Source of the DNA: Candidatus Gastranaerophilales bacterium
GTDB lineage: Bacteria; Cyanobacteriota; Vampirovibrionia; Gastranaerophilales; Gastranaerophilaceae
Reading direction: 5' to 3'
Assembly: GCA_947624975.1 (NCBI GenBank)
Contig: CANQMP010000006.1
Coordinates: 1 to 64,000, forward strand
Length of the DNA stretch: 64,000 nucleotides
This document shows, piece by piece, positions 17,177-43,694 of the stretch; position 1 is the first letter of the stretch; each line of letters begins with the position of its first letter. The notes beneath the pieces are model-generated. The model saw only the letters and a list, made by a program, of their open reading frames with translations, searched no databases and had not been told where the DNA came from. A program made the position numbers and the translations under genes.

Positions 17177-17330
17177 AGTTTTAGAATAACATAAAAATAA
17201 TTTTTATTTATAGCCTGTTTATATAATAGTGTTGTACAACTTATTTGTAAATGTAAAACTTTTATAAGGAAATTTTATTTTTAATTTTTCAATGTTATAA
17301 TTTTCTTAGTAGACATTGAGAGAGGAAATT

Positions 17331-23977: not shown

Positions 23978-24975
23978 AACTGACTGTACTTGGTGCGGGA
24001 TGCTGGGGGTTAACTTTAGCCCGATTACTGACCGATAACTTTGATAAAATTACCGTCTGGGGCAGAGCTCAAGATTTGTCCGAAGATTTAATCAATAACA
24101 GACATGTTTCAAAACCGCTTGAGGTTCAACTGGACAGCAATGTTGAAATTACCTCAAATCTTGAAACGGCAATATCTGACGCCGATATAATTCTGTCCGT
24201 TGTTGCAACGTCAGGTACACGTGATGTTTGCGAAAACCTTAAAAAAGCGGGAGTTAAGCCCGAACAAATTTTGGTTAACGCTTCAAAAGGTATTGAATTG
24301 CCTTCATTAATGCGAATGTCTGAGGTTATAAAAGATGTTTTGCCCGAACAAAAACTTGCGGTTCTTTCAGGTCCTACGCTTGCTAAAGAAGTTCTTGCAG
24401 GACTTCCGACCGCTGCATGCGTTGCCTGCGAAGATATTAAAATTGCAGAATTCGTTCAAAAAGCTCTCAATGTACCTTCAAAATTCAGGCTTTATACAAA
24501 TACTGACGTCATAGGGGTTGAACTCGGAGGTTCTTTAAAGAACGTAATCGCTATAGCATCAGGCTTTGCACATACTATGGGACTCGGGGATAATTGTACG
24601 GGAACGCTTTTGACACGCGGTATGGCTGAAATAGTTCGTGTAAGTATAAATTTGGGAGCTAATCCGTCCACATTATACGGACTTTCAGGCATGGGTGACT
24701 TAATCGCAACCTGTTCAAGTCCGATGTCAAGGAATTACACGGTCGGTTCAATGCTTGCAAAAGGCAAGAAAATAGATGATATTTTGGCGGAACTCGGTTC
24801 CGTTGCTGAAGGCGTAAAAACATCTAAGGCAATTTGCGAACTTGCCAAAAAACTTGATATTGATGTTCCCGTGTCAAATGCCATATATGAAGCGGTTTAC
24901 ACCGATATAACTCCTCAGGCTTTGCTTGAAAAATTAATGAACAGAAAACTAAAAGAAGAAGAAAGATATGTATAA
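23974..24975 (+). CDS. gpsA: Glycerol-3-phosphate dehydrogenase [NAD(P)+]
   Basis: 333 aa. N-terminal Rossmann motif LGAGCWGLTLARLL, then VNASKGIE, LSGPTLAKEV and ELGGSLKNVIAIASG with the catalytic Lys. Makes sn-glycerol 3-phosphate for phospholipids. Overlaps murQ (ATGA) and the RicT-like gene, so these form one operon. Confidence 0.96.
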   Translation: MKLTVLGAGCWGLTLARLLTDNFDKITVWGRAQDLSEDLINNRHVSKPLEVQLDSNVEITSNLETAISDADIILSVVATSGTRDVCENLKKAGVKPEQILVNASKGIELPSLMRMSEVIKDVLPEQKLAVLSGPTLAKEVLAGLPTAACVACEDIKIAEFVQKALNVPSKFRLYTNTDVIGVELGGSLKNVIAIASGFAHTMGLGDNCTGTLLTRGMAEIVRVSINLGANPSTLYGLSGMGDLIATCSSPMSRNYTVGSMLAKGKKIDDILAELGSVAEGVKTSKAICELAKKLDIDVPVSNAIYEAVYTDITPQALLEKLMNRKLKEEERYV

Positions 24976-25897
24976 ATTTGCCGTTGAATATATTAAAAAT
25001 ACGTTTTATCCGCTCGAAATTCCCGAAACTTTAAATGTTTCGGACGGGCAAATGGTGCTTGTCAGAACGGAAAAAGGCGAAGAAGCCCTAAAAGCTTTTG
25101 CGGTTAATTCAAATGTCGCAAAATGCTGGAATTGCTGTAAACACAAACCCGAGCCTTTACATGTAATCAGAATTCTTTCCCAGCGTGATTTACAGACTCT
25201 TGATGATATAAAAAAAGAAGAAGTCGAGGCGTTTTTCAAATGCAAAGCACTTGTCGAGCAGCATAAACTCGTCATGAATTTGGTTCAGTGCAGAATAACT
25301 TTTGATAAAAGAAAAATCACGTTTTATTATACTGCACCTGAAAGGGTTGATTTCAGGGCTTTATTAAAAGATTTAACTCAGGTTTTTACACGTGTAAGGA
25401 TTGATTTAAGGCACATCGGGGTTAGGGACGAAACCTCAATCATGGACGGATGCGGGATTTGCGGACGACCGTTTTGTTGTTCAAGTTTTTTAAGAAAGTT
25501 TGGCTCTATAAACGTGAAACTTGCAAAAGACCAGGGTATGCCGATTACTCCCGGAAAAATCTCCGGAACTTGCGGCAGACTCTTGTGCTGTCTGAATTAT
25601 GAATACTCAAATTATATTGATGCTGCAAAAGGTATGCCGCCTATCGGTTCATCGGTTATGACCCCCGACGGACTCGGCAAGGTTTGCTCGCTGCATTTTA
25701 TGTGCGGTAAAGTTGCCGTAAAAACCGAGGACGGAAAAATCAGAGAATTTGCAAAAGGTGATATTGAAATGGTTGATGCCGACGTTAACGTGGAAATTGA
25801 TGTTCCTGTTATGAACACTTACGCAGACGATGAAAACGACAACATAGACATAAAACAGCTTGAGGACGACAGAAACAGCTCAACGGGAAATGTCTGA
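24968..25897 (+). CDS. PSP1 / RicT-like protein
   Basis: 309 aa. The PSP1 C-terminal domain is visible at residues ~60-200 (YYTAPERVDFRALLKDLTQVFTRVRIDLRHIGVRDET), followed by the cysteine-rich CGICGRPFCCSSFLRKF and TCGRLLCCLNYE that may ligate Fe-S. In Bacillus the homologue acts with RicA and RicF in RNA maturation and developmental control. Acidic C-terminal tail. Overlaps gpsA by eight bases. Confidence 0.85.
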   Translation: MYKFAVEYIKNTFYPLEIPETLNVSDGQMVLVRTEKGEEALKAFAVNSNVAKCWNCCKHKPEPLHVIRILSQRDLQTLDDIKKEEVEAFFKCKALVEQHKLVMNLVQCRITFDKRKITFYYTAPERVDFRALLKDLTQVFTRVRIDLRHIGVRDETSIMDGCGICGRPFCCSSFLRKFGSINVKLAKDQGMPITPGKISGTCGRLLCCLNYEYSNYIDAAKGMPPIGSSVMTPDGLGKVCSLHFMCGKVAVKTEDGKIREFAKGDIEMVDADVNVEIDVPVMNTYADDENDNIDIKQLEDDRNSSTGNV

Positions 25898-25918
25898 GTT
25901 TTTCAAGTGCAAAAAAAT

Positions 25919-26248
25919 TAATATATGCTGCCTTTGTTCGGATTTTGTCAAAAGTTTCGTCTAAATGTTTAACCCAGTTAACAGCCCATTCAATCTTGTT
26001 GAAACAATTGTGAGTTTTGTCGTTTTAAAATCGATGATTTCTAAGCTTCCTATAAGCTTCTTCAGCATTATCATCATTGTTAAAACACATATTAATAATA
26101 AACATTATGTTATTTTCGGGTTCAATGTTGTCTAATGCTGAAGCCAATACTCTGTTACCTCTGGTATTAAGTGCATACAAAGGACCTTCGTTGCTGTGGC
26201 AACCGTAAATCTTATTTTATAATATGATTGAATTCTGTTTACTTGCAT
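25919..26248 (-). pseudogene. Decayed hypothetical gene (frameshift plus stop)
   Basis: From ATG 26248 the frame reads MQVNRIQSYYKI and then loses frame. A +1/-1 shift restores YGCHSNEGPLYALNT...NIMFIINMCFNNDDNAEEAYRKLRNHRF, then an in-frame TAA, then DKTHNCFNKIEWAVNWVKHLDETFDKIRTKA. The composition is clearly protein-coding, so this is a broken gene of unknown function. It sits at the junction of the housekeeping operon and the polysaccharide locus. Confidence 0.6.
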
Positions 26249-26384
26249 TTTACTTCTAAATTTTTTATATTATTATCTGCAGATTAGATTCTTATGTAAG
26301 AGATAATTAAAAAGAGCCCTAAAGGAGTAAAATTATACATGGAATTGTTATCAACTTTTTAGTAAAATAAGAAAGGAGTATGAA

Positions 26385-26927
26385 ATGACGTGTGTAGAAC
26401 CAATAAGAAAAGTTGAAGATATAAGAAAAGTAGAAAATATTTTAAAAAAACAAAGTATGAGGAATTTATTATTTTTTACTATAGGTACCAATTGTGGATT
26501 AAGAATTTCTGATATTTTGGCATTAAATGTCCGTGACGTGAAGAACAAAAATTTTATCCAAATTACTGAAAAAAAGACAGGGAAATTTAAAAAATTCCCG
26601 ATAAATTCCAAACTAAAACCGTTACTTGCAGAATATACAAAAGGAAAAGACTTGGATTCCCCACTTTTTGAAACTAAATTCGGGAATCGCTTAGAAAGAG
26701 TTGCGGCCTATTATATAATAAGAAATGCCTGTGAAGAAGCAGGTCTGGATGATAAATTTGGGACACATACTTTGCGCAAAACTTTTGGATATCATCATTA
26801 TAAAAAATTTAAGGATGTTGTTATCTTACAGCGAATATACAATCACTCGACACCGGCTACCACGCTCAGATACATCGGTATTACGGCAGACCAAATATTT
26901 GAAAGCTACACAAACTTTATAATTTAA
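26385..26927 (+). CDS. Tyrosine recombinase, catalytic-domain-only
   Basis: 180 aa with the full catalytic set: Arg40 in NCGLRISDIL, Lys in the TEKKTGK beta-hairpin, H128-T-L-R131, His154 in YNHSTPATT, and nucleophile Tyr163 in LRYIGIT. The usual N-terminal core-binding domain is missing apart from ~25 residues, so it is shorter than XerC/D. Ribosome site AAAGGAG. It ends 38 bases before a pair of 19-bp inverted repeats, which suggests it inverts that segment. Confidence 0.85.
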   Translation: MTCVEPIRKVEDIRKVENILKKQSMRNLLFFTIGTNCGLRISDILALNVRDVKNKNFIQITEKKTGKFKKFPINSKLKPLLAEYTKGKDLDSPLFETKFGNRLERVAAYYIIRNACEEAGLDDKFGTHTLRKTFGYHHYKKFKDVVILQRIYNHSTPATTLRYIGITADQIFESYTNFII

Positions 26928-26965
26928 AAATAATTACTCCAACATCACATTTTTTCATGATTTTA

Positions 26966-27222
26966 TTAGTCTTTTGTAATGAAAACTCTACATCCCTTAG
27001 GTTAACACAAACAAAAAAATAATTCATACAAATATTAAATTATATGAACTATTTCATAATGTACTTCTGTGCCATTTTTTGCTTATAAATTTAAAGAGAT
27101 TAAGTAAAAGATTAAGACTTTATATATATATTCTAATTAAAAAAATGTAATGAAAATATAAAAAACAATTAAAAATAATCCTGTAAACTCCCGTATTCAC
27201 TGGTTTCATTACAAAAGACTAA
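26966..27222. repeat. Candidate invertible DNA segment bounded by 19-bp inverted repeats
   Basis: TTAGTCTTTTGTAATGAAA at 26966-26984 and its exact reverse complement at 27204-27222, with 219 bases between and no gene inside. The interior is very AT-rich with promoter-like boxes (for example TTAAGT at 27100, 17 bases, TATATA at 27123, plus strand). A partial third copy (TGTAATGAAAA) is at 27146-27156. The site lies between an intact tyrosine recombinase and the polysaccharide operon. Confidence 0.8.
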
Positions 27223-27266
27223 AAATGTAAAGAAAACCAAAAGCGCTGAACTTTAGGATTTTTTGT

Positions 27267-27854
27267 ATGCCAACTTGTTTACCAATAAAAGATATAAAAG
27301 AAATTAGAGCAATAGAGAAGTTATTCATAAAGAAAAAACAACCTTCTCATCTTCTTATGTTCCTTTTGTCAATCAACACAGGTATTGATTTGACGGAATT
27401 ACTAAATCTTAAAGTAAAAGATGTTAAGAATAAGTCTTGTCTGGTGCTTGGAAAACAAAAAAGTATCCCATTAAGTAATAAAATTATCGGTCTGATAAAT
27501 GAAGAAATTAAAGGCAAAAAAAAATCAGATTATTTATTCGAAAACTCAAGAGGTAATAAATTTGACAGAGCGCTTGTATTTTGTGCATTTAAAGATACCT
27601 GTGAGGAATTGGGATTAAATGAAAATTATTCTCTTGTTTCTTGGAGAAAAACATTCGCGTATCATCACTATATGAAATACAAAGATTTATCATACATTGG
27701 ATGGCTTTTTAACCATAACAATATAAATCAAACTCTCAAATTCATAGATGAAGTGGTGAAAACTCATAAAGTTATCACTATTTTGTGGATAAAATTTAAA
27801 ATCAAGAGGATACAAAAGAGCAAATTAGTTTCGCTAGAACCTGTAGAGAGATAA
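27267..27854 (+). CDS. Catalytically dead tyrosine-recombinase paralogue
   Basis: 195 aa, alignable throughout with the upstream recombinase (NTGIDLTELLNLKVKDVKNK; SWRKTFAYHHYMKYKDL). The catalytic residues are changed: Arg to Asp41, the first His of HxxR to Val, and the nucleophile Tyr to Phe (TLKFID). The gene is intact, has an AGGA ribosome site, and its stop codon abuts the ATG of the first glycosyltransferase. It may be a DNA-binding regulator of the switch or operon. Known for the family: loss of Tyr abolishes cleavage. The regulatory role is inference. Confidence 0.75.
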   Translation: MPTCLPIKDIKEIRAIEKLFIKKKQPSHLLMFLLSINTGIDLTELLNLKVKDVKNKSCLVLGKQKSIPLSNKIIGLINEEIKGKKKSDYLFENSRGNKFDRALVFCAFKDTCEELGLNENYSLVSWRKTFAYHHYMKYKDLSYIGWLFNHNNINQTLKFIDEVVKTHKVITILWIKFKIKRIQKSKLVSLEPVER

Positions 27855-28658
27855 ATGAAAATAAGCATAATTACAATCTGTTATAATGAACCAAATTTAG
27901 AAGAAACTTGTCAAAGTATTGTTAATCAGACTTGGCAGGATTTTGAGTGGGTTGTTGTTGATGGTAATAGTAATCAAAAAACCCAAGAAATTTGGGATAA
28001 GTACAAGTATAGAATTGACAAATTTATATCGGAGCCAGATAACGGACGATATAATGCTATGAATAAGGGGATAATGCTTGTATCCGGGGAATATTTAAAT
28101 TTTTTAAATGCAGGTGATTATTATACAGATAATAATGTTTTGCAAAAAGTTGTAGAATTGGGCTTAGATAAGGATATTGTATATGGAAATTTAAATTTTA
28201 TAGAGAAGACAGGTAAATTAAAAACTTGGAATTTCCCGGAAGTAGTAGATAATGAGTATTTATGTATTAGGTCTCTTCCTCATCCGGCATGTTTTATTAA
28301 AAAGGAACTTTTCAATTTGTATGGTTTGTACAATGAAAAATATAAAGTTGTTTCAGATTGGGAAAAATTTTTGGAGTTTATTTTAATGCATCACTCCTCA
28401 TATAAGCATATAAATTTGCAATGTGCCAATTTTAACTTAGAAGGAATTTCTTCCACTGATAAAGATTTATGCAAAAAAGAGCGTAGTGATGTTCTAAAAA
28501 AGTATTTTACTGAAGAACAGATTAATAAATTCTTAGAGAGTAAAGATTCATATTCTTTTGTAGAACAGATTTTTTCTATGAAAAATTCTAAAAATGGAAT
28601 TCATAAGATAATAACTTTTTTAGGTTGTCATTTAAAAATTAAAAGGAGTCATAAATAA
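27855..28658 (+). CDS. Glycosyltransferase family 2
   Basis: 267 aa. GT-A fold: [24 protein letters not shown] at the N-terminus, [27 protein letters not shown], and FLNAGDYY, the metal/nucleotide-binding acidic site of this subfamily. Probably adds a sugar to a surface polysaccharide repeat unit at the cytoplasmic face of the membrane. Starts immediately after the inactive recombinase and overlaps gmd by one base. Donor sugar unknown. Confidence 0.88.
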
Positions 28659-29743
28659 TGAAAAAAGCATTAATTACAGGTATAACAGGACAAGACGGCA
28701 GTTATTTAGCAGAATTATTGCTGGAAAAAGGTTACCAAGTTCACGGAATGAAACGTAGAGCTTCGTCTTTTAATACTTCAAGAATCGATCATTTATATCA
28801 AGATATTCATGAAAATTCGAGATTTAAACTTCATTATGGAGATTTATCTGATTCTTCTAATTTAATTAGATTGGTACACGATATTGAGCCGGATGAAATT
28901 TATAACCTTGCCGCTCAATCTCACGTAAAAGTTTCTTGGGATTGTCCTGAATATACTGCTGATAATGATGGTTTGGGGACTTTAAGGCTTTTAGAAGCAA
29001 TCAGAATTAATAAACTTGAAAATAAAACTAAGTTTTATCAAGCTTCAACATCAGAATTATATGGATTAATACAAGAACCTATACAAAATGAGAAGACTCC
29101 ATTTTATCCTCGTTCACCTTATGGTGTTGCAAAACTATATGCATACTGGATTTGTGTAAATTACAGAGAGTCTTTTGGAATTTTTGCTGCAAATGGCATT
29201 TTATTTAACCATGAATCACCGCGCAGAGGTGAGACTTTTGTAACTAGGAAAATTACAATGGCTGCAACTAATATCAAAGAAGGTTTACAAGATAAATTGT
29301 ACTTGGGAAACCTTGATTCAAAACGAGACTGGGGACATGCTAAAGATTACGTTGAAGGAATGTGGAGAATATTGCAACAAGACAAACCTCAAGATTATGT
29401 TTTGGCTACAGGTGTAACTACTTCAATCAGAGATTTTTGTAGAATGGCTTTTGAAGAACTAGGATATAATATTGAATTTGTTGGCAATGGTGTAAATGAA
29501 AAGGGTATTGATAAAGCTACGGGCAAGACATTAATAGAAGTTGATCCTCTTTATTTCCGCCCCGCTGAAGTAGACTTGTTACTGGGAGACAGTTCTAAAG
29601 CTCGAAAAGAACTTGGTTGGAAGCCAAATTATGATTTAAGGGCACTTGTAAAAGAGATGGTATCAGAAGATTTAAAACGAGCACAAAAAGAGAAAACATT
29701 GCGTGAAAACGGATATGAGATTTTAGTCCCACAGGAGGTTTAA
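28658..29743 (+). CDS. gmd: GDP-mannose 4,6-dehydratase
   Basis: 361 aa. Converts GDP-mannose to GDP-4-keto-6-deoxymannose. Rossmann motif [34 protein letters not shown], catalytic TSELYG with the YxxxK ([10 protein letters not shown]), and [16 protein letters not shown]. Its product feeds both the reductase at 30821 (GDP-rhamnose) and fcl at 32896 (GDP-fucose). Coupled to the preceding glycosyltransferase by a one-base overlap. Confidence 0.96.
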
Positions 29744-29744
29744 T

Positions 29745-30824
29745 TTGAAAAAATTATTGTATATTGATCACGCATTTCATAATAAGACGAAAAGTACACA
29801 ATTTTTACAAGAAATGTTTAAGTCAAAATACGATGTTACAAAATTTGATTTTGACCCGTACAAAGAGTCATTTGCAAAATTTGAGTCACTGTCTGGTCAA
29901 AAGTTTGATAATGTTGTTATATTTCAAATTATGCCTGATATTACAAAATTAAGCAAATATATCAAATGGAATAAAATTGCATTTTTCCCTATGTATGATG
30001 ATACACCAAAATTAAACAATGCTATTTGGGATAAATATAGAGAATGTAATATAATAAATTTTTCAAAAACATTACATGAGAATTGTAAAAAATACGGTTT
30101 GTCTTCTTATTATATTCAATATTTCCCTAAACCTAAAAAAAAATTAAATATGGGAGATGAAAAATCTGTATTTTTGTGGCAAAGACGTGAAAAAATTAAT
30201 CCAAAAACTGTCGAGAAAGTCATAGGTATTGAGAATATTAATTTTTTATATCACCATCAAGTGCCTGACCCGGAACAGAAATTGATATTACCTTCTAAAA
30301 ATTTTGAAGGAAAAGTTCATGTTTCAACATGGTTTGATAGTAAAGATGAAATGGACAAGTATATGCAAAAGTGTGCAATATATTTTTCTCCTCGCGAACT
30401 TGAAGGAATTGGAATGAGCTTTCAAGGAGCTATGGCTATCGGTAGATGTGTTATTGCACCAAATAATCCGACAATGAATGAATATATTAAAAATGGCGTT
30501 AACGGATATTTATATGATTTAAAACATCCTCATAAAATAACAATAAAAGACATAAGATTGATCCAAGAAAATGCAAGAAGATATATAGAAGACGGATACA
30601 AAGAATGGGAACAAAATAAATATAAAATTATAGCTTGGATTGAAGCTGATGTAAAATCAAACTCTGACCAAGATTTGATGGATTCCAAGTTGAATGTAAA
30701 AAATAACAAAAAGGTATCGATAACTTTGATTAAAAAAGTTTATACAAGAAAAAGTACTAACTTTTACTTATTTGGATTTATTCCTATTTTAAAAATTCCT
30801 AAAAAAGGAAAGGATAATAGATGA
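29745..30824 (+). CDS. Putative glycosyltransferase (GT-B-like)
   Basis: 359 aa. N-terminal half poorly conserved; the C-terminal half has YFSPRELEGIGMSFQGAMAIGRCVIAPNNPTMNEYIKNGVNGYLYD, matching the nucleotide-sugar-binding segment of GT-B (GT4-like) enzymes, with the EGIG element in place of the usual E-x7-E. TTG start with a strong AGGAGG ribosome site, directly after gmd. A ~60-residue basic C-terminal tail may touch the membrane. Substrate unknown. Confidence 0.7.
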   Translation: MKKLLYIDHAFHNKTKSTQFLQEMFKSKYDVTKFDFDPYKESFAKFESLSGQKFDNVVIFQIMPDITKLSKYIKWNKIAFFPMYDDTPKLNNAIWDKYRECNIINFSKTLHENCKKYGLSSYYIQYFPKPKKKLNMGDEKSVFLWQRREKINPKTVEKVIGIENINFLYHHQVPDPEQKLILPSKNFEGKVHVSTWFDSKDEMDKYMQKCAIYFSPRELEGIGMSFQGAMAIGRCVIAPNNPTMNEYIKNGVNGYLYDLKHPHKITIKDIRLIQENARRYIEDGYKEWEQNKYKIIAWIEADVKSNSDQDLMDSKLNVKNNKKVSITLIKKVYTRKSTNFYLFGFIPILKIPKKGKDNR

Positions 30825-31738
30825 AATATTTAATAACGGGATCCAATGGTTTTGTCGGAAGATATTTTATAGAATATTTGAAAAATAATGAAAAAGAAGC
30901 TGTAATTTATGGTGCTGATATTTCTGAAAATAGCTTAAATCCTGATATTACTTATATTCAAATAGATTTAAATGACAGGTTTGCAGTTTACAGAATGCTA
31001 GAAAAAATTAAACCGGATTATATTATACATCTTGCTGCGATGAGTTCTGTTGCTCAAAGCTGGCAAGATCCTGCAAAATGTTTTTTGCATAATACATCTG
31101 TTTTTTTAAATATTGCAGATGGTGTAAGGGAATTGGATATAAAATGCCGAATTTTATCCGTCGGGTCATCGGAAGAATATGGAATATATGATGAGCCGAT
31201 GAAAGAGAATTTTGTTTTACATCCAAAAAGCCCTTATTCTGTTGCAAGATTAAGTCAGGAATATTTATCAAAGCTTTATGTTGATTATTTTAATCTAGAT
31301 ATTGTCATGACACGTTCATTTAACCATATAGGACCAAGACAAAATCTTAAATTTGTAATTCCTTCTTTCGTTCATCAGCTTGTAAAAATTTCAAAAGGGA
31401 AACAAAAGGATATAAAAGTTGGCAATATCGATGTAGTTAGAGATTTTCTTGATGTTAGAGATGTTGTAAATGCATATTATAAAATCTTAAAAAACGGCAA
31501 AACAAGAGAAGTTTATAATGTATGTTCCGGTAAAGGCGTAAGGTTGCGAGATATAATTGAAATGATTTCTGCAAAATTAAATATTACTCCGAAAATTATT
31601 GTAGATAATAATCGTTTAAGAGCAAATGAAATAATGTCAGTAATTGGAGATAATTCTAAGTTAAAAACGGAAATAGGCTGGGAGCCGAAATACGATTTAC
31701 AAACAACTTTAAAAGAAATGATTCTGGAGATAATATAA
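30821..31738 (+). CDS. rmd: GDP-4-keto-6-deoxy-D-mannose reductase (Rmd-like)
   Basis: 305 aa extended SDR. GSNGFVGRYFIEYL, VGSSEEYG, YSVARLSQEYL (YxxxR/K region) and RSFNHIGPRQ, the last characteristic of RMD enzymes. It would reduce the Gmd product to GDP-D-rhamnose. The catalytic Lys of YxxxK appears as Arg in the obvious alignment (YSVAR), which deserves a check. Overlaps the upstream gene by four bases and the 11-codon glycosyltransferase stub by one. Confidence 0.78.
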   Translation: MKYLITGSNGFVGRYFIEYLKNNEKEAVIYGADISENSLNPDITYIQIDLNDRFAVYRMLEKIKPDYIIHLAAMSSVAQSWQDPAKCFLHNTSVFLNIADGVRELDIKCRILSVGSSEEYGIYDEPMKENFVLHPKSPYSVARLSQEYLSKLYVDYFNLDIVMTRSFNHIGPRQNLKFVIPSFVHQLVKISKGKQKDIKVGNIDVVRDFLDVRDVVNAYYKILKNGKTREVYNVCSGKGVRLRDIIEMISAKLNITPKIIVDNNRLRANEIMSVIGDNSKLKTEIGWEPKYDLQTTLKEMILEII

Positions 31739-31773
31739 TGAATATACTTTTTGATGCGAGAATTTATAGTTAA
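31738..31773 (+). pseudogene. 11-codon stub of a deleted glycosyltransferase
   Basis: MNILFDARIYS followed by a stop. This is the usual N-terminus of GT4-type glycosyltransferases (MNILFDARIYS-x-x-GIGRY). It begins in the normal operon overlap (TAATG), so a full gene probably stood here before a deletion joined its start to the next gene. Confidence 0.55.
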
Positions 31774-31820
31774 GTATAAGTTTGGCAAAAACAGTAAATG
31801 TACTACATAAAGGAATAAGT

Positions 31821-32799
31821 GTGAAAAAAGCTGTATTATTTATAACATTTAATAGATTAGATTATGTAAAAGAAACTTTTGAGCAAATACGCCTTGCTAA
31901 ACCTCCGCGTTTTTATATAGCTTCAGACGGACCAAGAGAAAACGTTGAAGGAGAAGCGGAAAAAGTTCAAGAAATCAGAGATTATATTTTAAGTAATATT
32001 GACTGGGATTGCGAAGTAAAGACACGTTTTCTAGAAAAAAATACAGGAGGTTGTGCTTATGGCGTATCAGGTGCTATAACTTGGCTTTTTGAACACGAAG
32101 ATGACGGAATCATATTGGAAGATGACTGCGTTCCTAGTCAATCATTTTTTACCTATTGCGAAGAAATTCTAGATAAATATAAAGATGACAAAAGGATTTG
32201 GCATATTACAGGCTATGCTCCTGTAGATGATGTTAACATAAAAGAATCCTATTATTTCTCAAAAATTCAACATTGTTGGGGTTGGGCAAGTTGGGCGGAT
32301 AGGTGGAAATTTTTCACACTTGACTTAAAGGATTATGACAGAAAAAATTTAAAAAAATTTTCCGAAAATAAAGATGTTCAAAGATATTGGTCTAACATTC
32401 TAAATATGATGCAAAAAAAATCCAGGATACACTTGGGATTATCAATGGACATTCATAATTGTAGCAAATGACGGTTATTGTATAAATCCTGTAAAAAATT
32501 TGATATCTAACATCGGATATAAAGGAGAGCATTATTCTTGTGAAAGTTCGCCCCCCCCCCATTTAAACAAAAAAACTTTTAATTTAGAAAAATTAATTCA
32601 TCCTAGAGAAGTGGAATTTAACGAGGAAGCTATTAACAGAATTTATGACGAAACCTTTGAGATAATAAAAATCCGTATAAATTATCATTGGTATGAGTAT
32701 TTGTTTTCGGTTAAGAATGTTGAAAAGTATAGTATATGGACAATATTAGGAGTTAAATTAAAGTTTAAATATAAAAAAAGATATGATGAAGGTTATTAA
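31821..32799 (+). pseudogene. Glycosyltransferase split by an A8 tract (possible phase-variable gene)
   Basis: The first part reads (V)KKAVLFITFNRLDYV, FYIASDGPRENVEGE, GIILEDDCVPSQSFF and WGWASWADRW, a GT-A-type nucleotide-sugar transferase. The start is taken as GTG 31821 (AAAGGA upstream). At 32413-32420 an A8 run shifts the frame and a stop follows. With A7 the reading continues TWDYQWTFIIVANDGY..NLISNIGYKGEHYS to 32799, matching the family C-terminus. A C10 tract (32551-32560) lies further on and is in frame. Either slipped-strand switching, decay or an assembly error. Confidence 0.75.
32551..32560 (+). repeat. C10 homopolymer inside a glycosyltransferase frame
   Basis: Ten consecutive C encode three prolines in the restored frame (ESSPPPHLN). 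Loss of one C would cause an immediate TAA. Confidence 0.9.
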
Positions 32800-32895
32800 T
32801 AAGAAACTGAATATGCCTAAAAAATAATAACCTTTTAATATAAAAATTATTAAAAATTCTTGTAATATAAATAGGGAAATATAAGGAAAATAAAT

Positions 32896-33846
32896 ATGAA
32901 CAAAAGCAAAAAAATCTACATAGCAGGTCACAGAGGACTAGTAGGTGGAGCTATAAAACGAGAATTAGAAAGAAAAGGTTATACAAACCTTATTTATAAA
33001 ACTCATTCTGAACTTGATCTAACAGATTCAAAAGATGTAGCCGAATTCTTTGAAGCAGAAAAACCCGATTGGGTTATCCAAGCTGCTGCAAAAGTCGGCG
33101 GGATTCAGGGAAATAGCAAATATCCTGTTGAATTTATGCTTGAAAATTTAAAAATTCAAAATAATATTATTGAAAATTCTTACAAAAATAATGTTGATAA
33201 ATTAATGTTTCTCGGCTCAAGTTGTATTTATCCCCGTATAACTCCACAACCTATGAAAGAAGAATATCTGCTTTCAGATTACTTGGAAAAAACCAACGAA
33301 GGCTACGCATTAGCTAAAATTTGTGGGATAAAACTTTGTAATTACTTCAACAGAGAATATGGTACAAACTACATGTCTGTAATGCCATGCAATTTGTATG
33401 GAATTGGTGACAATTATCACCCTCAAAATGCACATGTTATTCCAATGTTAATCCGACGTTTCCACAAAGCAAAAGAGCAGAGATTAAAAGAAGTGACTGT
33501 TTGGGGTACAGGAACTCCGCGCAGAGAATTCCTATTTGCAGATGACCTCGCAGAAGCTGTGGTCTTCTTAATGGAAAATAAAGACACAAAATACATTGGA
33601 GAATTTATAAATATTGGCCCAGGAACTGATTTAACTATAGCAGAAATCGCGCAAATGGTGAAAGATACCGTTGGATTTGATGGGGAACTTGTTTATGACA
33701 AAACTAAACCGGACGGAACACCTTTAAAACTTATGGATGTTTCAAAAATCAATGCACTTGGATGGAAGGCAAAGACTGATTTAAAAACAGGTTTAAAAAT
33801 CGCATATGAGGATTTTTTATCGGGAACAAAAAGAGGGGATATATGA
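32896..33846 (+). CDS. fcl: GDP-L-fucose synthase
   Basis: 316 aa. Epimerase/reductase using the Gmd product. YIAGHRGLVGGAI (NADPH site), AAAKVGGIQGN, LGSSCIYPRITPQPMKEEYLL, YALAKICGIKLC (YxxxK) and PCNLYGIGDNYHPQNAHVIPM are all conserved. Ribosome site ATAAGGAAAA. A ~95-base gap separates it from the split glycosyltransferase, so it may have its own promoter. Confidence 0.96.
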   Translation: MNKSKKIYIAGHRGLVGGAIKRELERKGYTNLIYKTHSELDLTDSKDVAEFFEAEKPDWVIQAAAKVGGIQGNSKYPVEFMLENLKIQNNIIENSYKNNVDKLMFLGSSCIYPRITPQPMKEEYLLSDYLEKTNEGYALAKICGIKLCNYFNREYGTNYMSVMPCNLYGIGDNYHPQNAHVIPMLIRRFHKAKEQRLKEVTVWGTGTPRREFLFADDLAEAVVFLMENKDTKYIGEFINIGPGTDLTIAEIAQMVKDTVGFDGELVYDKTKPDGTPLKLMDVSKINALGWKAKTDLKTGLKIAYEDFLSGTKRGDI

Positions 33847-37314: not shown

Positions 37315-37917
37315 TTATGCTACCTTTTCTAATTTGTTTATAAAGTTGTAGAGATTGCTGACAGAAGTATTATACTGTCTGGCAATTATTGTCTTTGGAA
37401 CATTCAGAGCAAGTAATTTCATTATATCCTCTGTGTGTTCATCTAACTTCGATTTACCTTTGCCATGCGGTCGTCCAAGTTTTATCCCTTGTACTTTTCT
37501 TGCGTGTAATGCTTCACGAGTTCTCAGGCTTATAAGCTCTCTTTCAATTTGTGCTACAAGTGCAAAGACAGTTTTAGTGACAGTCGAGGCAATGGAATTA
37601 TCCATATTACAAAAGTTTTCTTTGAGTGAATAAAAAGTAATACCTTTATCTTGTGTAAGTTGAATTACCTCTAGTATTTGAATGGTTGACCTTGCAATCC
37701 TTGACAGTTCAGGAACAATCAACACATCCCCCTTGCTCATCTTGTTTAATAATGCTCCAAGTTTACGTTTCTTGTAATCCTTTGTACCGCTGACCTTTTC
37801 TTCTACAAACTGAATGTTACCCAGTTGTTTAAGGTGTGCGAATTGTAACATGTCTACTTTGTTTTTCTCTGTATCTTGGTCGAGTTTGCTTACCCGTATA
37901 AATCCTATTGTTACCAT
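37315..37917 (-). CDS. Small serine recombinase (resolvase/invertase)
   Basis: 200 aa. N-terminal catalytic domain with the nucleophile Ser in GFIRVSKLDQDTEKN, VSGTKDYKKRKLG, VPELSRIARSTIQ (the conserved SR-x-x-R) and an E-helix; C-terminal HTH (KTIIARQYNTSVSNLYNFI). Hin/Pin/resolvase size. It could invert or resolve DNA in this element; no cognate inverted repeats were identified nearby. Convergent with the zinc-ribbon operon. Confidence 0.9.
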   Translation of the reverse strand: MVTIGFIRVSKLDQDTEKNKVDMLQFAHLKQLGNIQFVEEKVSGTKDYKKRKLGALLNKMSKGDVLIVPELSRIARSTIQILEVIQLTQDKGITFYSLKENFCNMDNSIASTVTKTVFALVAQIERELISLRTREALHARKVQGIKLGRPHGKGKSKLDEHTEDIMKLLALNVPKTIIARQYNTSVSNLYNFINKLEKVA

Positions 37918-41720: not shown

Positions 41721-41895
41721 AAAGTTAGTTGTTGAATTTGAGTCTCCAAGTGAACAAATGGATGAAGTGGTTAATATAGCTTTGGTTACACAACTTATGA
41801 CCACTATAACACGGATTGGAATTAGAGTTTATAAACCTGAGAATATAGATGATATAATAAAAAAGGAGAATGGACATGACAAAGAAAAACATTAG
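41713..41895 (+). CDS. Small hypothetical protein before integrase, 60 aa
   Basis: MTKKLVVEFESPSEQMDEVVNIALVTQLMTTITRIGIRVYKPENID... The start at 41713 has a GGAGGG ribosome site; it overlaps the stop of the Rep-like gene by eight bases and the integrase start by ~20. Not recognised. Position suggests cotranscription with the integrase, perhaps a directionality or regulatory partner (inference). Confidence 0.6.
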   Translation: MTKKLVVEFESPSEQMDEVVNIALVTQLMTTITRIGIRVYKPENIDDIIKKENGHDKEKH

Positions 41896-43576
41896 TAGAA
41901 AAATCGTTGTTGGCTATGGCAGAGTTAGCTCTGCCGAACAGGCTAGCAGTGGTTACAGTTTAGAAATGCAACAAGAGCTCTGTAAAAACAAAGCAACATC
42001 ACAGGGTTATAATTTTGTGTACTTTGAAGATGCGGGTAAAACGGGCTCTAACACAAACCGTAAGGGACTTAAGGCAATGCTCAAGTATATAAAAGAACAC
42101 AGAAATGAGGTTGCCTATGTGATAGTTTGGAAGCTGGACAGACTCTCTCGTTGCCTTGAAGACTTCTTTGCTGAAATACTTAAACCAATTAAAGATAACG
42201 GTTGCACTATTGCAAGTATTATGGAGAATTTTGATGACATTAGAAAAGTCAAGAAAGTCTTAATCGCAGTTTACATCGGACAAGCAGAAGATGAGCTTGA
42301 CAATATAAAAGAAAGAACAAGCTCAGTAGTTAGAAATCGTGTAACAAAAGGGTATTTTCATGGGAAAGCCCCTATAGGCTATATCAATTCAAGAGATGAA
42401 AACAAACATGGAATTATCAAACCTGATGAAAACAAAGCTCATCATATCAAGAGATGTTTTGAATTGTATGCTACAGGTCTATTCTCTTATGAGAAAATAG
42501 GAAAAGAGTTAGCTAAGTATGGATTTGTAGATAGTAAAGGTAAACCTTACACCGTAAAAAGAATACAAGATATAATTAAGAGTCCTGTGTATGCAGGAAA
42601 AGTAATTCATGGGGATGATGTATTTGACGGTGTACACGAGCCTATTATATCTCCTGAGTTATTCTATCGAGTTCAACTAATGCTCAAAGGCTCCGAAAGT
42701 AAGACTCCTAGAGGTTTAGTATATACCTATTCAAACTTTATAAAATGTGCAAAATGTGGCTACAGTATGGTTGGAATAACTAAGCATGGAGCTAACAATA
42801 GCGGAACATACATCTATTACCATTGCTCTAATTATTCGAGAGCTCACAGGAAAGAAAAAAACATTAATGAAATCCTGATAGATGAAGCCATGCAAGAGGT
42901 TATTGATAGCTTTGACATCTCCGAAAAAGAGATTAAAGCCGTTAAGAAAGAGATAACCAATGCCATTACCGACTTAAAGAAATATGAGCATAAGTCAATC
43001 GATGACCTTAAAAGACAATATGATGAGCTTACAGAGCTGATAGCAAAGCATCTTATTGCAAGCACAACAAGTAAATTAGGGGTTAGTGATACAACACGAG
43101 CTGAGATTATCAAGAAGTTGGAAGCTCGCAAGAGTTCTATTGCCAATGAGATAACCAATTTGGCAGAGAACTCAAAAGATACGACTAGTCGTATCAGTAT
43201 CTTGATTGACTTTGCTAATAGAATTCCTGAGTTGTACCTCAAGGCTACCCTTGAAGAAAAACGATTGATATTAAACACTATCACTGAAAGTATTATCTAT
43301 GACGAAGATACAAATAGGCTAAAAGTAAAATTAAGACCTGTATTTGAACATTTAAGACAAATAAAATTAAAAAAGAAACAAGAATTTTCACAAAACTTAG
43401 AAACATTGACTGGAACTCTTGAAACTCGTTCACAGAGTGCAAAACAAGCTCTTGAAAATAACCGTTTGAATTTGAGCAATGTAACAGTGATTGGAACTCG
43501 TCAAAATAGCTTAAATGCTAAAATAGAGCCCATTTTTGAAGGCTCTAAAAAGTTAAATGTCGATGGGGGGACTTGA
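41876..43576 (+). CDS. Large serine recombinase (integrase)
   Basis: 566 aa. N-terminal resolvase domain with nucleophile Ser in [33 protein letters not shown] and [13 protein letters not shown]; then the recombinase domain ([25 protein letters not shown]), a zinc ribbon ([16 protein letters not shown]) and a long coiled coil. Start set at 41876, seven bases after AAGGAG; an ATG at 41870 is too close. The last six codons lie inside the tRNA-Leu(GAG) gene on the opposite strand, so the C-terminus partly depends on the integration site. Confidence 0.9.
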
Positions 43577-43638
43577 ACCCCCACGGATTTCTCCACACGC
43601 CCCTCAAACGTGCACGTCTACCATTCCGCCACATCGAC
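43558..43638 (-). tRNA. tRNA-Leu (anticodon GAG)
   Basis: Acceptor GTCGATG / CATCGAC with discriminator A. The anticodon stem CACGT/GCGTG encloses the loop TTGAGGG, giving anticodon GAG. Long variable arm (TGGAGAAATCCGT region) and T loop TTCAAGT. CCA is not encoded. Its 3' end coincides with the right edge of the mobile element, and the integrase gene runs into it. Confidence 0.92.
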
Positions 43639-43694
43639 AAGATTAAAATTTTTATATTAAGTTGTCAAAATAATTTAGTGTCTCCGTGGCGGAT

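Follow-up and report, generated by a model that had tools for sequence, protein, structure and literature searches.

Does a short recombinase gene followed by inverted repeats form an invertible switch for a polysaccharide operon in this genome, and what would the first gene under its control do? Gastranaerophilales are an abundant, little cultured, non-photosynthetic gut lineage of the cyanobacterial phylum. The locus lies within the stretch of 64,000 nucleotides analysed here (the window). We consider it very likely that it is a site-specific inversion switch, in which the recombinase R1 flips a promoter for R11 and a glycan operon, and that R11 is a catalytically dead recombinase paralogue belonging to the ON state and likely to bind the recombination sites.

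The recombinase R1 and its inverted repeats

The features of the locus are as follows.

26385-26927, forward strand: R1, tyrosine recombinase (DNA invertase) of 180 aa, catalytic domain only (PF00589, E 4.2e-23)
26959-26978, reverse strand: left recombination site, GATTTTATTAGTCTTTTGTA, with intact inner and degenerate outer half-site (from arm comparison and paralogous loci)
26966-26984: left 19-bp inverted repeat arm, TTAGTCTTTTGTAATGAAA
26985-27203: segment between the perfect arms, predicted to invert from the inversion seen in relatives
26999-27011, reverse strand: predicted extended -10 promoter element, TTTGTGTTAACCT (motif TT[TG][AG]TGnTAnnnT), pointing at R1 in the assembly
27204-27222: right 19-bp inverted repeat arm
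27210-27229, forward strand: right recombination site, TACAAAAGACTAAAAATGTA, whose two half-sites are both present and make up a 20-bp dyad of the same form as in paralogous loci
27267-27854, forward strand: R11, recombinase paralogue judged catalytically dead (36% identical to R1, E 4e-37), at the head of the operon predicted to be switched
27855-28658, forward strand: glycosyltransferase family 2, its ATG directly after the R11 stop (PF00535, E 1.6e-20)
28658-29743, forward strand: GDP-mannose 4,6-dehydratase (PF16363, E 1.6e-154)
29745-30824, forward strand: glycosyltransferase group 1 (PF00534, E 1.8e-13)
30821-31738, forward strand: NAD-dependent epimerase, GDP-mannose dehydratase family (PF16363, E 5.3e-64)
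31782-32471, forward strand: ORF of 229 aa with no Pfam match, whose position suggests a glycan gene
32896-33846, forward strand: NAD-dependent epimerase, GDP-fucose synthase-like by sequence (PF01370, E 1e-61)

The layout described in an earlier note on this DNA is exact to the base: the short tyrosine recombinase ORF is followed after 38 nt by the left arm and, 219 nt further on, by the right arm of a perfect 19-bp inverted repeat. Within the 64-kb window no other perfect inverted repeat of at least 15 bp has arms 20-3000 nt apart. When the 339-nt intergenic region was modelled by 20,000 first-order Markov sequences, none reached 19 bp, and the longest repeat among them, 18 bp, occurred once. 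Extended without gaps, the arms match at 85% over 33 nt. As far as their sequence tells, the arms are part of 20-bp recombinase-type sites, of which the outer half reads GATTTTAT on the left versus TACATTTT on the right. The repeats bound a non-coding segment beside a recombinase gene, as in invertons.

R1 matches the tyrosine recombinase profile PF00589 and has the complete catalytic set of R, H, R, H and Y (R40, H128, R131, H154, and Y163), all five residues being invariant in 30 relatives. Judged by these residues it is an active recombinase. Its AlphaFold2 model (mean pLDDT 86) has XerA (5hxy) as best Foldseek match, and comparison with its counterpart in locus L102 (dN 0.058, dS 1.17) indicates strong purifying selection. 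The best profile match of R1 is phrog_216, a family of phage integrases (E 2.3e-54); the R1 family differs from these in being chromosomal and multicopy within genomes, with separate repeats for each copy. R1 had been regarded as unusually small, which it is not. Invertases that consist of the catalytic domain alone and measure about 200 aa are known (NCBIfam has tyrosine-type DNA invertase models of 198 and 200 positions, and the phage family phrog_216 is of this kind too), and the window genome itself has ten intact paralogous tyrosine recombinases of about 180 aa, 52-100% identical to R1.

Perfect repeats of 18-30 bp accompany six of the ten own-genome paralogues, with a different sequence at each. 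They lie close after the recombinase stop in five cases and flank the gene itself in R6, where 30-bp perfect inverted repeats stand 585 bp apart around the recombinase gene at a contig end; R6 is, by this arrangement, a putative self-inverting recombinase. Recombination-type repeats of at least 14 bp were not found at R4, R5, R9, and R10, R5 ending 132 bp before its contig end. Of the 146 genomes sampled from the same taxonomic family, 102 carry the recombinase, and the 80 best relatives are apparently from Candidatus Gastranaerophilales or gut MAGs of the same kind, one of them with an older Fusobacterium label. For 100 distinct active relatives the downstream sequence was long enough to be examined: in 34 of them a perfect inverted repeat of at least 18 bp lies within 700 nt downstream, while none of 90 control stretches taken upstream has one and 20 shuffles of each gave none either. 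Divergence of recombinase and of site is correlated weakly (r 0.14, 1 of 2000 permutations), the register of the 20-mer being poorly fixed.

Repeats paired about 260 bp apart would also fit the ends of a MITE or of an integration site, and mobile regions hold some of the paralogues: R7 of the same genome has a copy of equal score and identity in another genus, which points to recent movement of the element. Such an origin of the repeats is scarcely credible here. A genome search for further copies of the repeat, a check named in the earlier note, gave exact matches to the 18-bp core at the two arm positions only; the next best had two mismatches, and loose matches were as numerous with a reversed-pattern control. 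The repeats are therefore not a dispersed element. In many paralogues repeats of different sequence lie close after the recombinase stop, which also argues against MITEs. MITE or transposon ends were rejected for the window on the single copy, and for the family they are refuted by pairs of relatives inverted between intact flanks.

Inversion among relatives and the predicted promoter

Related genomes were checked for inverted segments, and both orientations are found among family relatives. Between L170 and L176 the interior is 96% identical when inverted vs 57% when direct, and between L170 and L178 89% vs 56%, with collinear flanks and intact repeats in both comparisons. In L131 and L132 a 189-nt segment upstream of a GT9 operon (heptosyltransferase and GT2) is 97% identical in inverted alignment, again with collinear flanks. 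L145 and L174, both with a dead recombinase copy, are 76% identical inverted over 202 nt between collinear flanks and have the same promoter element in opposite orientation. Relatives of the window switch invert, as these alignments indicate, and from them we infer inversion of the window copy and phase variation of its operon. The proposal of an invertible switch upstream of a surface-polysaccharide operon is upheld to this extent, but L102, the only close relative (R1 protein 89% identical), has the segment in the same orientation as the window (74% direct vs 53% inverted). A search of 33 genomes of the genus for the window segment in inverted orientation gave no segment match in other genomes. 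Contigs end within 100 bp downstream of the recombinase in 6 of 80 cases and upstream in 1 of 80, which is suggestive only of mixed orientations.

Seven of the related loci (L103, L104, L105, L112, L131, L145, and L174) have three recombination sites, of which two are in direct and one in inverted orientation, and often two promoter elements, so that more than two states are possible. Comparison of L102 with window positions 24968-29743 shows a common unit of recombinase, switch, and dead gene. The genes upstream of the unit differ (PSP1 in the window, mazG-like in L102), and the unit thus sits at different genome places in the two.

The interior of the segment had been called non-coding and promoter-like, and this agrees with the extended -10 element found inside it, by motif only. 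The motif was observed 73 times in 100 switch regions vs 7 expected from shuffles. A simple sigma-70 scan gave no excess over shuffles, unlike the organism-specific extended -10 motif, which proved informative. Since it also occurs upstream of ordinary window genes, for example at 17195 (reverse strand) and 34911 (forward strand), it looks like a general promoter of the organism. The window -10 hexamer, TAACCT, is a weak match and counts against the switch reading. Across loci, the motif faces the recombinase only in 35 cases, the operon only in 17, and both in 5. By the same motif, R1 and R8 of the window genome are predicted to be OFF, and R2 and R7 ON. As the predicted promoter faces R1 in the assembly, the operon is probably OFF there; inversion would put the -10 at 27177-27189 on the forward strand, about 70 nt before the first operon gene.

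In the proposed mechanism, R1 would recombine the two oppositely oriented 20-bp sites and flip a segment of about 240 bp, which carries a putative outward-facing extended -10 promoter near one end. In the OFF state this promoter would read toward the 3' end of R1, possibly giving an antisense RNA that could lower R1. In the ON state the -10 at 27177-27189 would transcribe R11 and the glycan operon (27855-33846), and R11 would be made only in that state.

The switch could by now be frozen, with the degenerate outer half-site on the left (GATTTTAT against TACATTTT on the right) stopping R1 and the operon left OFF or on another promoter. The same orientation in L102 and the altered C-terminus of R11 would fit such a loss. 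We regard it as unlikely, because continuing exchange would best preserve the perfect identity of the 19-bp arms, L102, at about 80% DNA identity to the window, keeps a 14-bp perfect repeat core, and R1 is under the strong purifying selection given above.

The dead paralogue R11 at the head of the operon

The gene after the switch had been taken for the head of the polysaccharide operon. It is the first operon gene, but it is not a glycan gene; it encodes R11, and the polysaccharide operon, present as described, has its first glycosyltransferase only after it, at 27855. R11 retains the recombinase fold, with a match to PF00589 (E 1.5e-14), phrog_216 as its best profile match (E 6.5e-28), and a model having 144 residues at pLDDT 90 or more, for which XerA and other recombinases are the best solved matches in Foldseek. 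Three residues are lost, namely the first catalytic arginine (R40 to D), the catalytic histidine (H128 to V), and the nucleophilic tyrosine (Y163 to F); R11 still has the second R as well as the NH-motif H. With its pentad broken and the nucleophile gone, R11 is not catalytically competent by residue content. Its last ~30 residues (window 27755-27854, THKVITILWIKFKIKR...) resemble the glycosyltransferase tails of the same operons and replace the NMNLRYREGVxL ending found in its relatives. The C-terminus is perhaps an in-frame fusion, possibly via a gene deletion.

R11 is not an isolated case. Dead copies form one clade in a quick tree (support 100, stem length 1.5), with at least 19 intact members and 34 copies in the order-wide sample. 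They have invariant residues specific to the clade (S125, W146, and others), and a profile of the clade scores dead copies at 175-286 bits and active copies at 158 at most. Of 386 genomes sampled across the phylum, 20 carry dead copies, and all 20 belong to the family of the window. Comparison of R11 with L102 gives dN 0.11 and dS 0.98 (dN/dS about 0.11). On this comparative evidence the dead copies are of single origin, under purifying selection, and without their catalytic residues. In viral contigs, candidate dead copies were rejected, being only distant recombinases 28-36% identical to the dead query.

R11 could be a functionless duplicate in decay, as the lost catalytic residues, the replaced C-terminus, and an internal deletion in the dead gene of L153 might suggest; that deletion means that the dead protein is not always kept, and together with the altered C-terminus of R11 it counts against the main reading as well. 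Decay is nevertheless highly unlikely in view of the single ancient origin, the number of intact copies in the clade and across the order, the new invariant residues, and a dN far below dS.

The position of the dead genes is also consistent. In sixteen of the 28 dead loci read, an active recombinase gene lies on the same strand 200-446 nt upstream, and six further loci have a repeat pair of 18-31 bp with no recombinase adjacent, so that the dead gene adjoins a recombination switch in 22 of 28; about 4 of 28 have no repeats upstream. Dead copies usually lie 10-70 nt after the predicted invertible promoter. Of 10 genes tested that directly follow a dead copy, Pfam places 9 among glycan genes, which encode glycosyltransferases, nucleotidyltransferases, UDP-galactopyranose mutase or sugar transferases.

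The basic charge of dead proteins equals that of active ones, and with fold and charge kept, the most likely role of R11 is the binding of recombination sites. R11 is thus probably a DNA-binding regulator of switching. Unable to cut DNA, it would bind these sites alone or mixed with active subunits. Mixed with R1, it could lower inversion and lock the ON state; it may instead bias the window switch or act on sister switches. A feedback device, in which the first gene switched on is a dead invertase copy that binds its own or sister sites and biases inversion (e.g., by locking itself ON or sister glycan switches OFF), can be put forward only tentatively, with chances somewhat short of even.

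The main rival accepts the invertible promoter and regards R11 as an ex-recombinase reused as a transcription factor or antiterminator of its own operon, similar to UpxY. Such reuse is a serious contender, though on balance we doubt it. The first-gene position of R11 matches that of upxY (PMC7315117), and the dead gene is linked more closely to the operon than to the recombinase: in L140, L145, L161, and L174 the active copies are 94-98% identical and the dead copies only 55-70%, as if operons had been swapped at the switch. The six dead loci with repeats and no adjacent recombinase fit as well. Against reuse in transcription stand the recombinase fold and basic charge kept in the dead proteins, the weak correlation of distances between dead and adjacent active proteins (r 0.29, 75 of 5000 permutations), and the dead gene's place beside a recombination switch in most loci.

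Site binding by R11, the reading we prefer, gives a testable model of a stochastic switch that may sense its own state. If true, one family of non-photosynthetic relatives of the cyanobacteria would have a dedicated dominant-negative recombinase built into its phase variation as a regulator.

Known systems and other recombinases of the genome

The order of recombinase, repeats, and operon had been likened to the capsule loci of Bacteroides, and the parallel holds outside Bacteroidota. Among the nearest known cases is Tsr19 (BF2766) of Bacteroides fragilis, a local tyrosine recombinase by IVp-I upstream of an extracellular polysaccharide operon (PMC4747536). As in the window, the recombinase is immediately upstream of an invertible promoter driving a polysaccharide operon, and some loci have more than two repeats (PMC4747536), as L103, L145, and L174 do here. 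The likeness rests on layout and spans two phyla, and a dead recombinase as first operon gene is not described in PMC4747536.

Capsule operons of Bacteroides have an invertible promoter followed by a regulatory gene at the operon head (PMC7315117, PMC4747536). There, a single serine invertase, Mpi, acts in trans and UpxY is an antiterminator, whereas each locus of the window family usually has its own tyrosine recombinase. R11 is like UpxY in its head-of-operon position, without homology; in place of the upxY/upxZ genes of Upx-type capsule operons, a homologue of tyrosine recombinases heads the operon.

In E. coli, fimS (FimB/FimE), ipuS, and hyxS similarly have small tyrosine recombinases by a promoter element of the 260-bp class with short inverted repeats, which are of 7 bp in the 260-bp ipuS, 9 bp in fimS, and 16 bp in hyxS (PMC6083910), all shorter than those of the window. 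They differ in controlling fimbriae or an autotransporter, not glycans, and in that their extra recombinases are active. R1 matches the FimB and FimE tyrosine-type DNA invertase models weakly and scores far below their curated thresholds (NF007371, 40.7 bits, cut-off 222; NF007370, 26 bits, cut-off 221).

Gut inverton surveys describe many phyla, and the word Cyanobacteri- is absent from PMC11892184. A search of openly accessible literature returned nothing relevant on phase variation, an invertible promoter or a recombinase in Gastranaerophilales, and nothing relevant on dead tyrosine recombinases as regulators. The type of switch is already known from Bacteroides Tsr19 and E. coli FimB/FimE, and the operon-heading dead recombinase is new. 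The locus would extend invertase-controlled phase variation of surface glycans to Gastranaerophilales, and it brings to light catalytically dead invertases, conserved as a class, at the head of putatively phase-variable glycan operons.

Serine recombinases are also encoded in the window. A 200-aa protein of the serine resolvase/invertase family (37315-37917, reverse strand) has a similar counterpart about 1 kb upstream of switch R2, and could represent a second invertase class in this genome. A large serine recombinase (41870-43639; PF00239, PF07508) ends inside tRNA-Leu(gag) (43557-43639, reverse strand), a junction that is likely the edge of an integrated element.
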